In this document: positions 11,406-16,049 of the stretch, one piece after another
Layout: each line of letters starts with the position of its first letter
Numbering within the stretch: the first letter of the stretch is position 1
Source: Halothermothrix orenii H 168
GTDB lineage: Bacteria; Bacillota; Halanaerobiia; Halanaerobiales; Halothermotrichaceae
Assembly: GCF_000020485.1 (NCBI RefSeq)
Contig: NC_011899.1
Location: 1,954,501-2,018,500 of the forward strand
Direction of reading: 5' to 3'
DNA: 64,000 nt
Made by a program: the position numbers and the translations under genes
The notes under the pieces: generated by a model
The model's input: only the letters and a program-made list of their open reading frames with translations
Told to the model about the DNA's origin: nothing
Databases searched by the model: none

Positions 11406-12887
11406 ATGGAGAAGAAAGAACAATGGGGAAGTCGTCTTGGATTTATATTTGCTGCTATAGGTTCTGCTGTAGGATTGGGTAATATCTGGCGTTTTTCCTA
11501 TCAGGCTTATGAAAATGGTGGTGGGGCATTTTTACTACCTTATCTAGTAGCCCTATTTACAGCCGGTATCCCACTGTTAATTCTGGAGCTTGGACTCGGG
11601 TTCAGGACCAGGTCATCAGCCCCCCTATCTTTCAAAAAGATCGGAAAAAAATATGAATGGATTGGCTGGTGGTCAGTCGGGGTTGGTTTTGTAATCACCG
11701 TTTATTATACTGTAATTATCGGGTGGAGCCTGGCCTATGTCTTTAAGGCCTTTAATCTTAACTGGGGTTCAAACCCTGCTTCCCACTTTACAGGTGAATT
11801 TCTGGGCGCAACCGGAAGTGTCTGGGAACTTGGTGGTATCAGGTTTTTTGCGCTGGCATGTCTCATAATTGTCTGGCTGGCCAATTATTTTATCATATCA
11901 AGGGGTGTCCAGAAGGGTATCGAAAAGGCCAGTAAAATTTTTATGCCTTTATTGTTCTTCCTGGTTATATTAATTACAATCAGGGGAATCACCCTGCCGG
12001 GGTCTATTGAAGGTATTAAAGCCTTTGTTACTCCTGATTTCAGTAAAATCACCGACTGGAGGATCTGGGTCAGTGCCTTTGGGCAGATCTTTTTTACTTT
12101 AAGCCTTGGTTTTGGTATTATGATTGCTTATGCCAGTTACCTGCCTAAGGATTCTGACGTTGTCAGTAACGGAATAATTACCGCACTGGCTAACAGTGCC
12201 TTCAGTATTATTACCGGTTTTGGTGTCTTCGGTGTTCTGGGATATATGGCCATGAAACAGGGAGTCCCTGTATCTGAAGTAGCTACTGATGGAATTGGAC
12301 TGGCTTTTATTGCCTTCCCCAAGGCCATAAACCTGCTCCCGGCCGCTTCCAGGATTTTCGGAGTCTTATTCTTCCTGTCCCTGGTTATTGCCGGGCTAAG
12401 TTCCAGCATATCACTGGTAGAGGCTATGGTAGCAGCCTTAATCGATAAATTTGAAATTTCCCGTAAAAAAGCCGTCACCTATATCTGTATTATAAGTTTA
12501 ATCCTCGGTATTCCATTCGTAACCGGTGGTGGCCTGGTATTACTGGATATTGTTGATCATTTCATAAACCGGTATGGTTTGTTACTCGTCGGTTTTGTTG
12601 AACTTGTAGTAATAAGCTACTTCTTCGGAGTAGATAAAATTAAAAAGGCTGTGAATCCTTCCTCAAACACAGAGGTGGGCCCAACCTGGTCGATTATGGT
12701 TAAATATTTAAGCCCTCTGGCTCTGATTTTTGCTCTATTTTTAGAACTGATAAAGGATTTAACCAGTCTTTACGGAAACTACACTTCGCTGGAGATAATT
12801 CTCTTCGGCTGGGGTACAGTTCTGATTGTTATTCTCCTGGCCTTTAACCTGGCCAGAAGAGAGATAACTTTAAAAACCAATGTATAA
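11406..12887 (+). CDS. Neurotransmitter:sodium symporter (SNF/NSS) family transporter
   Basis: This 493-residue protein has about 12 membrane helices. The first helix region (RLGFIFAAIGSAVGLGNIWRF) and NGGGAFLLPYL are the sodium and substrate-binding signature of LeuT-fold NSS transporters. These import amino acids or related compounds with Na+, fitting a sodium-rich habitat; the substrate is not predictable here. The start ATG follows an excellent SD (ATAAGGAGGAAGAAG). It is one of only two protein genes of any size on the plus strand and is monocistronic, ending in a bidirectional terminator. Confidence 0.93.
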   Translation: MEKKEQWGSRLGFIFAAIGSAVGLGNIWRFSYQAYENGGGAFLLPYLVALFTAGIPLLILELGLGFRTRSSAPLSFKKIGKKYEWIGWWSVGVGFVITVYYTVIIGWSLAYVFKAFNLNWGSNPASHFTGEFLGATGSVWELGGIRFFALACLIIVWLANYFIISRGVQKGIEKASKIFMPLLFFLVILITIRGITLPGSIEGIKAFVTPDFSKITDWRIWVSAFGQIFFTLSLGFGIMIAYASYLPKDSDVVSNGIITALANSAFSIITGFGVFGVLGYMAMKQGVPVSEVATDGIGLAFIAFPKAINLLPAASRIFGVLFFLSLVIAGLSSSISLVEAMVAALIDKFEISRKKAVTYICIISLILGIPFVTGGGLVLLDIVDHFINRYGLLLVGFVELVVISYFFGVDKIKKAVNPSSNTEVGPTWSIMVKYLSPLALIFALFLELIKDLTSLYGNYTSLEIILFGWGTVLIVILLAFNLARREITLKTNV

Positions 12888-12952
12888 ATCTGACTTATAA
12901 AGTAAATACACTCTTATAAACAATGAAACTCATGTAATATTATTATATTATT

Positions 12953-12997
12953 AAAGCCCTATCTTCCGGTTTAAGAATAACCGGGATAGGGCTTTTT
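12953..12997. terminator. Bidirectional terminator between symporter and osmoprotectant operon
   Basis: An outer stem AAAGCCCTATC / GATAGGGCTTT encloses an inner stem CCGGTT / AACCGG. A-runs and T-runs on both sides let it stop both the plus-strand symporter gene and the minus-strand ABC operon. Confidence 0.85.
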
Positions 12998-13008
12998 AAT
13001 TATTATAT

Positions 13009-13959
13009 TTACTTATTCTCTTCCCCATTTATATAACTTGCCAGATCAGAAATTGTTTTTATACCAAGCTTTTCAGCCTTTTTCCTGGTCATCAGCAAAG
13101 TATAGGTATTATTGGCAGGGGCGTAATCTAACCAGATAATGTTATTAGCCTCAGCATCCCATTTCTTAACCTTCTGGTATGCTTCGTCGGACTGGGTAAT
13201 CTCGTCTTCTTTCATTACGGTCATTAAAACAGTCCCGGTATATTCCCAGCAGGCATCAATCTGACCTGATTCCAGAGCCTTACGGAGGGCCGGAGTGCCT
13301 CCCAGGCTTGTCCTATCCTCAACAGGATAACCATGGGCTTTTAGGAGATCAATTAACATGTGACCTAAAATAAGCTGCTCGGTAAATATCTTGGAAGCTA
13401 CTGTTATGGCAGGCCCCTGTTTGAGCTCTGGTTCATCGGGAAGAAGTCCCTTCTCTTTAAGGAATTTTTGTGCAACCTCTTCGGGGTCTTTACCGTCAAC
13501 ATCTACTTCTTTGTTTAAGTTAGTCAGGGTTTTTTGGTCCAGAACAGGTGGAAGTTTATTAATTACATCAGCCAGTTCAGGGTATTCATCCAGAATTTCC
13601 TTTCTGATTGTCGGAGCTGGATTATAGACCGGAAAATAGTTTTTATCATCTTCCAGTGAGACAAGGTCAAAAGCAGCAATCCGCCCATCTGTGGCAAAAC
13701 CCATGGCTACATCTAGTTTGTTATTCCTTAAAGCATCATATGTTAACCCTGTTTTCATGGTTGTTAAGGCATCCCGGTCAAATTTAAATCCATAGGCTTT
13801 TTCCAGTCCAGGAATACCATCATCTCTATTTAAAAATTCAACATTGGTCCCCATTTTAATAACAGCCTGTCCTTCTTCCTGCTTATCACCACATCCAGCC
13901 AGAAGAACTATTCCCAGTAACAACACAGCTAAAACTAAAATAAACCTTCTTTTTACCAT
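13009..13959 (-). CDS. Osmoprotectant (glycine betaine/choline) ABC binding lipoprotein, circularly permuted
   Basis: This 316-residue lipoprotein has the lipobox LLAGC (C23). It belongs to the OpuCC/ProX/OsmF binding-protein family, but its halves are in the reverse of the usual order. Residues about 36-175 match the normal C-terminal half (FLNRDDGIPGLEKAYGF, then ATDGRIAAFDLVSLEDD, ending DGKDPEEVAQKFLKEKGLL). Residues about 183-310 match the normal N-terminal half (ITVASKIFTEQLILG, then SLGGTPALRKALESGQID, WEYTGT and ELGIKTISDLA-like KLGIKTISDLA). The fold is probably kept because the two termini of each lobe lie close together. It is the last gene of an ATPase-permease-binding protein operon that imports compatible solutes. 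Confidence 0.88.
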   Translation of the reverse strand: MVKRRFILVLAVLLLGIVLLAGCGDKQEEGQAVIKMGTNVEFLNRDDGIPGLEKAYGFKFDRDALTTMKTGLTYDALRNNKLDVAMGFATDGRIAAFDLVSLEDDKNYFPVYNPAPTIRKEILDEYPELADVINKLPPVLDQKTLTNLNKEVDVDGKDPEEVAQKFLKEKGLLPDEPELKQGPAITVASKIFTEQLILGHMLIDLLKAHGYPVEDRTSLGGTPALRKALESGQIDACWEYTGTVLMTVMKEDEITQSDEAYQKVKKWDAEANNIIWLDYAPANNTYTLLMTRKKAEKLGIKTISDLASYINGEENK

Positions 13960-14025: not shown

Positions 14026-14670
14026 CTACTTACTATATAGCCGGGGAGTTGACATCTTTTTCTCCAACACATCAAAAAATCTATCTAAAATAATGGCAAT
14101 TATAGCAGCTAGAAGTGAGCCTATTAGTATCTTTACAGGATTAAACATGGCCAGTCCGGTAAAAACCATCCGGCCCAGACCCCCACCCCCTATTAAATCT
14201 GAAATAATTGCTGTTCCCACTGTAACCACTGCAGATGTCTGGACACCAGCTATAATAACCGGTAAAGCCAGGGGAAGTTCAATCTTAAAAAGAACCTGTA
14301 AAGGGGGCATTCCCATCCCCCGGGCCGCTTCCAAAATAGAATCATCTACCTCATTGAGAGCAGTATATACATTACGAACAATGGGAATCATTGAATACAG
14401 AACAAGGGCACAAACGGCACTCCTCCGGCTTAAGCCAAACCCTGGAATAGTCATTAAAATCCCATAGAGAGAAATACTGGGGACAGCCATAATCAAACTA
14501 CCGACACCGAGAATACCACGGGCCAGATTTTTTTTATTTCTGATAATAACCCCTACCGACACCCAGAGTAATAAGGAAAAAAACATAGCAATACTGATAA
14601 GGGCCAGGTGGGATACAGTAAACCTATAGATTTTATCTATATGGTCAATAAAGTATACAATAATACTCAT
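14026..14670 (-). CDS. Osmoprotectant ABC transporter permease (OpuCB/ProW type)
   Basis: This 214-residue, six-helix permease has the EAA loop in its later part (EAARGMGMPPLQVLFKIELP). It matches the OpuC/OsmW/YehW-type permeases that form the channel for glycine betaine or related solutes. OpuC-type operons often have two permease genes, but only one is present here, so a homodimer is likely. It follows the ATPase gene by 16 bases and precedes the binding-protein gene by 66. Confidence 0.88.
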   Translation of the reverse strand: MSIIVYFIDHIDKIYRFTVSHLALISIAMFFSLLLWVSVGVIIRNKKNLARGILGVGSLIMAVPSISLYGILMTIPGFGLSRRSAVCALVLYSMIPIVRNVYTALNEVDDSILEAARGMGMPPLQVLFKIELPLALPVIIAGVQTSAVVTVGTAIISDLIGGGGLGRMVFTGLAMFNPVKILIGSLLAAIIAIILDRFFDVLEKKMSTPRLYSK

Positions 14671-14686
14671 ATTACCACCTTCCCAT

Positions 14687-15820
14687 TTATATATTAACTG
14701 ACACTAAATCATTTTCCTGATAGGAATTGCTGACATAAGACCTAATATCTTTTAAAGTAACAGTTCCGACCAGTTCCCGCTCATCATTTACAACCGGGAC
14801 TACAGCCACATCATTTTCGATCATTTTAGCCAGGGCATCCTTTAAAGTTGCCTCTATTTCGACAACCGGGGTCGGTTTCAAAAATTTATACCAGTCGGAA
14901 TCCTGATGTTTTTTCAATCTATTGCTGCTTATATAACCGGCCAGGTGTTCATCTTCACCGGTGACCATGATATAATCCTGATCCAGGTTATTAATCTCCT
15001 TTAAAACATCCTCAGCCCGGGAAACACTCTCTACGGTAGGAACACCGGTATTCATTATTTTGTCAACATGTATTAAATTAAGGACCTTAAGGCCCCTGTC
15101 AGAACCAACAAAGTCTTCGACAAATTCATTCCCGGGGTTGAATAAAATGTTGGCCGGGGTGTCAAACTGAACAAGTTCACCCTGATTCATAATAGCTATT
15201 TTATCTCCCATTTTAATGGCCTCATCTATATCATGAGTAACAAAAACTATGGTCTTTTTTATCTTGCGCTGCAGTTTTAAAAACTCGTTCTGAAGCTGGG
15301 TCCGGGTTATGGGATCAACTGCTCCAAAGGGCTCGTCCATTAACATAATAGGTGGGTCTATCGCCATAGCCCGGGCTACCCCGACCCTCTGCCGTTGTCC
15401 ACCGGATAACTCCATGGGATATTTATAACGGTTTTCTTCCGGATCGAGTTCCACCATCTCTAAAAGCTCATCAACTCTTTTCCGGATCCGGCCTTCATCC
15501 CAGTCCCGGAGTCTTGGTACAGTAGCAATATTTTCATAAACTGTCATGTGAGGAAAGAGGCCAATCTGCTGGATGACATAACCAATATTTTGCCTTAATT
15601 CATTGGGGTCTTCTTTCATGGCGTCTTTCCCGTTTATATATATTTTTCCTGAAGAAGGTTCAATAAGACGATTAATAATTTTTAGAGTAGTAGTTTTACC
15701 ACATCCTGAGGGACCAACCAGAATACATATTTCCCCTTCCTCAATATGTAAATTCAATTCCTTAACAGCAGGTCTGTCCATATTGGGATAAACTTTACTT
15801 ATACCTTCCAGTCTAATCAT
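14687..15820 (-). CDS. Osmoprotectant ABC transporter ATP-binding protein with two CBS domains
   Basis: This 377-residue ProV/OpuCA-type ATPase has Walker A GPSGCGKTT, signature LSGGQRQRVGVARAM, Walker B IMLMDEPFGAVD and an H-loop VTHDIDEA, all in residues 1-240. A C-terminal pair of CBS motifs follows (about 255-370), ending VNDERELVGTVTLKDIR. In OpuA the CBS pair senses ionic strength and switches transport on under osmotic stress. It is the first gene of the operon, with a strong SD (AAGGAGGGAAATAGAGT). Confidence 0.9.
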   Translation of the reverse strand: MIRLEGISKVYPNMDRPAVKELNLHIEEGEICILVGPSGCGKTTTLKIINRLIEPSSGKIYINGKDAMKEDPNELRQNIGYVIQQIGLFPHMTVYENIATVPRLRDWDEGRIRKRVDELLEMVELDPEENRYKYPMELSGGQRQRVGVARAMAIDPPIMLMDEPFGAVDPITRTQLQNEFLKLQRKIKKTIVFVTHDIDEAIKMGDKIAIMNQGELVQFDTPANILFNPGNEFVEDFVGSDRGLKVLNLIHVDKIMNTGVPTVESVSRAEDVLKEINNLDQDYIMVTGEDEHLAGYISSNRLKKHQDSDWYKFLKPTPVVEIEATLKDALAKMIENDVAVVPVVNDERELVGTVTLKDIRSYVSNSYQENDLVSVNI

Positions 15821-15907
15821 ACTCTATTTCCCTCCTTATTTAGTTTTAAAATCTTTTGTATTTCTTTAAAAGACTACTATAAAAAGCTATTTAAATTTAA
15901 AGGGCAA

Positions 15908-15949
15908 TAAAAAATCCCTCAAGACCAGCCGGAGGCCGGTCCGGGGATT
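15908..15949 (-). terminator. Terminator downstream of the 161-residue protein gene
   Basis: On the minus strand an outer stem AATCCC / GGGATT encloses a GACC-GCC / GGCCGGTC hairpin and is followed by TTTTTTATT. It lies about 100 bases after the stop codon of 16050-16535. Confidence 0.75.
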
Positions 15950-16049
15950 CTATATGGCATTATAAGAAAGCAAAATGAGAAATTATAGAAAGCAAAAAAT
16001 TCTCCTATTATAGTATAACAAAATAGTCAGTTAAAGTCAAATTTTTTAA

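Follow-up and report, generated by a model that had tools for sequence, protein, structure and literature searches.

A circularly permuted OsmF/OpuCC-type solute-binding lipoprotein of Halothermothrix orenii, and a probable recurrent permutation site in the PF04069 family

The product of the last gene of an apparent transporter operon in Halothermothrix orenii H 168 belongs to the Tyr-cage (OsmF/OpuCC/AfProX) branch of the PF04069 family and is a genuine circular permutant. Within the window, the 64,000-nucleotide stretch of contig NC_011899.1 analysed here, this solute-binding lipoprotein (SBP) of 316 residues, P0001, was delimited by its open reading frame and by profile matches (13009..13959, minus strand, as for all features of the gene and its operon unless stated otherwise). 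It is preceded by the genes for an ATPase with a CBS domain (ProV/OpuCA type, exceeding the TIGR01186 cut-off; 14687..15820) and a permease of 214 residues (BPD_transp_1; 14026..14670), and a AAGGAGGG-type ribosome site lies upstream of its reading frame. The signal peptide and the lipobox, the latter called intact in an earlier note on this DNA, were read from the sequence (13891..13959; LAGC, Cys23). The remainder consists of half A (residues 34-173; 13441..13860), the DGxxGLEK half that is C-terminal in canonical relatives; a new linker from the ancestral C-terminus to the ancestral N-terminus (residues 174-182; 13414..13440); and half B (residues 183-312; 13024..13413), the SKIFTEQ half that is N-terminal in canonical relatives. 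The chain order is A then B, as opposed to B then A in the OsmF/OpuCC/AfProX branch. P0001 is the sole close copy in the genome (single contig, 2,578,146 bases), and a separate canonical OpuAC-type protein (L096) is encoded elsewhere. Our explanation as a whole, that of a Tyr-cage permutant which forms a clamshell, serves a quaternary-amine importer, arose by tandem duplication at a recurrently used site and was accompanied by a separate permease fusion, is very likely to hold.

The reversed order of the halves had been proposed in the earlier note, and it is borne out by the predicted fold as well as by matches to Pfam, NCBIfam and a solved structure. P0001 scores 218.5 bits against PF04069 (gathering cut-off 21.2) as two swapped stretches of the Pfam OpuAC profile, with residues 34-169 on profile positions 115-257 and the other half on positions 2-113. 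The order is swapped too in the NCBIfam OsmF model, where residues 183-312 correspond to positions 3-134. Aligned with the structure of E. coli OsmF (4wep), residues 185-311 match chain positions 4-132 and residues 33-172 match positions 136-280, which gives two offset diagonals far beyond chance (i-Evalues of the two halves 1.4e-24 and 1.1e-26) and not one continuous diagonal. A profile built from 19 permuted relatives retrieved 27 strong relatives from the PDB, including OsmF, OpuCC, OpuBC, EgtUC and AfProX; in each of these matches half A fell in the later part of the chain or half B in the earlier part, which is the canonical order, and the search turned up no permuted chain among solved Tyr-cage-branch structures. 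Both profile and structure-sequence matches place P0001 nearer to the OsmF/OpuCC/AfProX branch than to OpuAC or ProX-Ec. Two members of this branch, E. coli OsmF/YehZ and B. subtilis OpuCC, resemble P0001 in sequence (38% identity to 4wep across the half that aligns), in their pocket positions and in serving importers whose ATPase is of the CBS type, whereas their halves stand in the opposite order and, with sequence order kept, the alignment covers just half of the chain. With the NCBIfam OsmF equivalog NF049931, P0001 reaches 228.3 bits, below the curated cut-off of 400, so whole-length annotation models under-score permuted proteins.

We modelled P0001 with AlphaFold2, using as input the window protein aligned with permuted loci and with canonical half-proteins, and obtained a confident structure (pLDDT 96.6, pTM 0.91), according to which the protein would fold as the usual two-lobe clamshell. 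In VIA-align searches, the only high-Z end-to-end matches of this model were the B. subtilis OpuAC entries (Z 17.3-18.4 over 243-248 residues at 15-16% identity), followed by a next-best chain at Z 9.7. Foldseek likewise returned B. subtilis OpuAC as the end-to-end structural match, while its alignments to OsmF, OpuCC-type and sensor proteins showed 31-47% identity and covered only about half of the chain (some 140-150 columns). Because the alignments are half-only in the one case and end-to-end in the other, P0001 combines a sequence of the OsmF/OpuCC branch with the chain order of B. subtilis OpuAC. The rmsd between the model and OpuAC, 4.2-4.8 Å, may reflect open versus closed states.

Hinge linkers have been described for EgtUC (PMC9732360), and mapping on relatives gives N284, Y286 and Y112 as their equivalents in P0001. 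By this mapping, lobe I of P0001 is continuous (about residues 113-283) and lobe II is composed of residues of about 34-111 together with 287-316, while lobe II is the continuous lobe in canonical proteins. The cut therefore lies inside lobe II, and the swap concerns sequence halves and not structural lobes; the earlier note, which had spoken of a swapped lobe order, was right about the halves but not about the lobes. The same mapping onto relatives implies that the lipid anchor was shifted from lobe I to lobe II. This suggests that a lipid or membrane tether can sit on either lobe, which constrains docking models of the binding protein. Nearly all permuted relatives share the cut site: where the motif could be located, about 2-14 residues follow 'SDL' before the chain ends, and the domain begins shortly before 'EFxxRxDG'. 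Sequence and predicted fold together show that the ancestral C-terminus was joined through a short linker to the ancestral N-terminus, and that the protein gained its new ends in lobe II, at a point flanked by the 'ISDLA' helix and the strand preceding 'EFxxRxDG'.

The residues of the binding pocket survived the rearrangement. We compared P0001 with AfProX at seven positions that we take to form the AfProX ligand site; the AfProX sequence used for numbering was identical to 1sw1 throughout, the first residue excepted. Half B contributes K190, Y240, T243 and Y286 (AfProX K13, Y63, T66 and Y111) and half A contributes R45, F88 and Y112 (AfProX R149, Y190 and Y214), so six of the seven positions are identical and only Tyr190 is replaced, by Phe88; a Phe at this cage position is common in canonical relatives too. 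The pocket roles of these positions are partly supported by published work (PMC9732360). The classified set comprises 62 canonical and 40 distinct permuted proteins, the latter drawn from at least four named phyla. Among the permuted proteins, no substitution occurs at AfProX K13, Y63, T66 or Y214, 39 of 40 retain R149, and positions 111 and 190 are mostly aromatic. Since the pocket residues are kept, a quaternary amine is the most likely ligand, and P0001 probably binds a glycine betaine-like compatible solute, which it would hand to the ATPase and permease encoded upstream. It is unlikely, if worth weighing, that P0001, though a true permutant, takes a different ligand, for instance ergothioneine or a quaternary amine that is not an osmoprotectant: ligands vary within the family, profile comparison places EgtUC close to P0001, and sensor proteins engineered for nicotine and acetylcholine are related as well. 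The hallmarks of EgtU, an invariant Gly244 and a Phe at the AfProX Y63 site (PMC9732360), are absent from P0001, which carries F192 and Y240; this argues against ergothioneine but does not separate betaine, choline, carnitine and proline betaine.

We built trees from halves re-ordered to a common order. In the tree of 68 rows and 270 columns, permuted and canonical forms are interleaved, and seven changes of order are needed, six of them forced by well-supported (starred) branches, a count that depends on the alignment and on the choice of canonical sequences, made by similarity to the query, and that takes gain and reversion together. Not one of 200 bootstrap trees showed just one change of order. 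AU tests, which were made post hoc after the trees had been seen and on short alignments, rejected a single permuted clade (p=1.8e-5) and a single permuted clade of Bacillota (p 3.7e-5). In the OpuAC branch, both chain orders occur among Bacillota (L122-L136, L096) and are interleaved in the tree; six changes occur across 27 rows, and a single origin is rejected there too. The query for that branch was an approximate B. subtilis OpuAC sequence, whose best genome match was full-length and 79% identical, a result that supports its order, though not every residue. Natural circular permutations are usually regarded as rare, ancient events. The best reading of the trees is that the same site switched order repeatedly in two distant branches. 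The lobe II loop of PF04069 proteins is probably a repeatedly used natural permutation site, with several independent switches in each of the two branches, in free lipoproteins and permease fusions alike, and with both forms within one taxonomic order.

The trees also indicate that the permutation of P0001 is of separate origin from that of OpuAC. B. subtilis OpuAC (2B4L, 2B4M) shares with P0001 the chain order A then B, the cut site and an end-to-end fold match (Z 17-18), as would be expected if one ancient permutation had been inherited by both proteins. We consider such inheritance very improbable: P0001 is about 15% identical to OpuAC as against 50-60% to canonical OsmF-type proteins of Halanaerobiales, each branch has canonical members of its own (about 48-58% identity), for either branch taken by itself the tests reject a single origin, and P0001 has kept an AfProX-type pocket, in contrast to the Trp-based pocket of OpuAC (PMC9732360). 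The modular sequence of the halves, and the recombination of the neighbouring permease genes described below, could instead suggest a hybrid that joined halves of two different solute-binding proteins by domain shuffling. Trees of half A and half B are congruent, however, P0001 falling in one starred clade and beside an unchanged set of neighbours (L027, L003, L002 and the canonical L008) in both, which makes such a hybrid hardly credible.

That OpuAC is a permuted relative is already known: CPSARST relates the glycine betaine-binding proteins 2B4L, 1R9L and 1SW1 by circular permutation (PMC2395249). The study compares distant solved structures, and its section on these proteins describes neither permuted OsmF/OpuCC-type proteins nor repeated switching (PMC2395249). 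No account of a permuted OsmF/OpuCC-type protein, of the recurrence or of the chimeric permease treated below emerged from our literature search, which covered open-licence papers and is only a weak sign that none exists. The earlier note had known of no precedent in the subfamily; B. subtilis OpuAC, in the same Pfam family and with the same chain order, is a nearer one than it had supposed. Among SBPs of a different family, Treponema Tp0684 (MglB-2), a glucose-binding protein of divergent topology, is reportedly another natural topological variant.

Genome surveys showed that the earlier observation was right and more general than claimed. A survey of Halanaerobiales found the permuted form in 7 of 38 genomes, the window's own included, and some other members of the order carry canonical forms of about 46-59% identity when compared half by half. 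The permuted form is encoded by 9 of 398 Bacillota genomes (own included, at a strict threshold), as it is by 15 of 296 Bacteroidota, 2 of 146 Cyanobacteria and 2 of 199 Planctomycetota genomes, seeds included, and one Aminicenantes MAG. Restriction of the permutation to Halanaerobiales is ruled out by these members. The Bacteroidota, cyanobacterial and Aminicenantes proteins are C-terminal fusions to a permease. In 349 Pseudomonadota genomes, searched without a positive control, a full-length permuted match was not found. An artefact of assembly, frameshift or gene fragments can be dismissed as next to impossible, given an intact reading frame with signal peptide, a confident model, and conservation of the same order across the permuted proteins, their phyla and many assemblies. 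Close relatives in one taxonomic order, 50-60% identical and with the same pocket in both chain orders, form a natural before-and-after pair, which allows tests of how permutation affects folding, ligand affinity and transporter docking.

As to the route, we propose a tandem duplication, (B-A)(B-A), that would have been followed by loss of the outer halves. Such a duplication would explain the repeated identical cut with intact termini. Since no true B-A-B-A fusion was seen among the proteins classified in the OsmF branch, we infer this route rather than observe it. Tandem copies were encountered at other loci. In Halomonas sp. EAR18 (L037, 3752-6341), two canonical SBPs, the first of them a permease fusion, follow one another in tandem in the same reading frame and are separated by just one stop, an arrangement that looks like an intermediate on a duplication route to permutation. 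One Bacillota genome encodes an 868-aa permease fusion with two permuted OpuAC-type domains in the order ABAB (L124). These two cases show that tandem copies occur, though the actual path is not thereby given. Genome G043 has a tandem array of three genes for canonical OpuAC-type SBPs (L136, 34-3050).

OsmF/YehZ- and OpuCC-type systems usually have two permeases. The window holds one permease gene in place of the two distinct ones that are an OpuC/Yeh-type trait, as the earlier note had seen, and this gene is a chimera of two paralogous permeases, which accounts for its being single. Residues 1-110 (14341..14670) are orthologous to the upstream permease 1 of relatives, with 75/110 residues identical to permease 1 of L027 and 22/108 to its permease 2, whereas residues 131-214 with the stop (14026..14280) are orthologous to the downstream permease 2 (59/84 identical, against 30/84 for permease 1). 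The switch point falls in the conserved EAA-loop region. Close relatives with a permuted SBP (L002-L007, L027) have the order permease 1, permease 2, SBP; in loci that extend far enough, the ATPase gene lies upstream of these. Deletion by recombination between two permease genes would give exactly such a chimera, and comparison with these loci shows a fusion, by recombination or deletion joining the two neighbouring genes, as an event separate from the permutation. The chimeric permease may act as a homodimer. One detected permease together with a permuted SBP was also found in other Bacillota (L028-L030, L032-L034), all of them short loci.

Upstream of the operon lies a promoter-like site, TTGACT-17-TATACT with TG preceding the second hexamer (16012..16040), identified by consensus match. 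The leader between this site and the ATPase gene contains an inverted repeat that is imperfect and has both GC-rich and T-rich segments (15897-15965), a possible attenuator. Rfam gave no credible match near the operon, the leader repeat included; its best matches there (E 0.05 and 0.16) are far below gathering scores and are taken as chance. A 23-nt inverted repeat that looks terminator-like follows directly after the P0001 stop (12941..13007, given without strand), and a terminator scan that included it reported nothing. Adjoining the operon and convergent with it, a gene on the plus strand (11406-12887) encodes a 493-aa membrane protein that looks, by eye, like a sodium-dependent (NSS-type) symporter.
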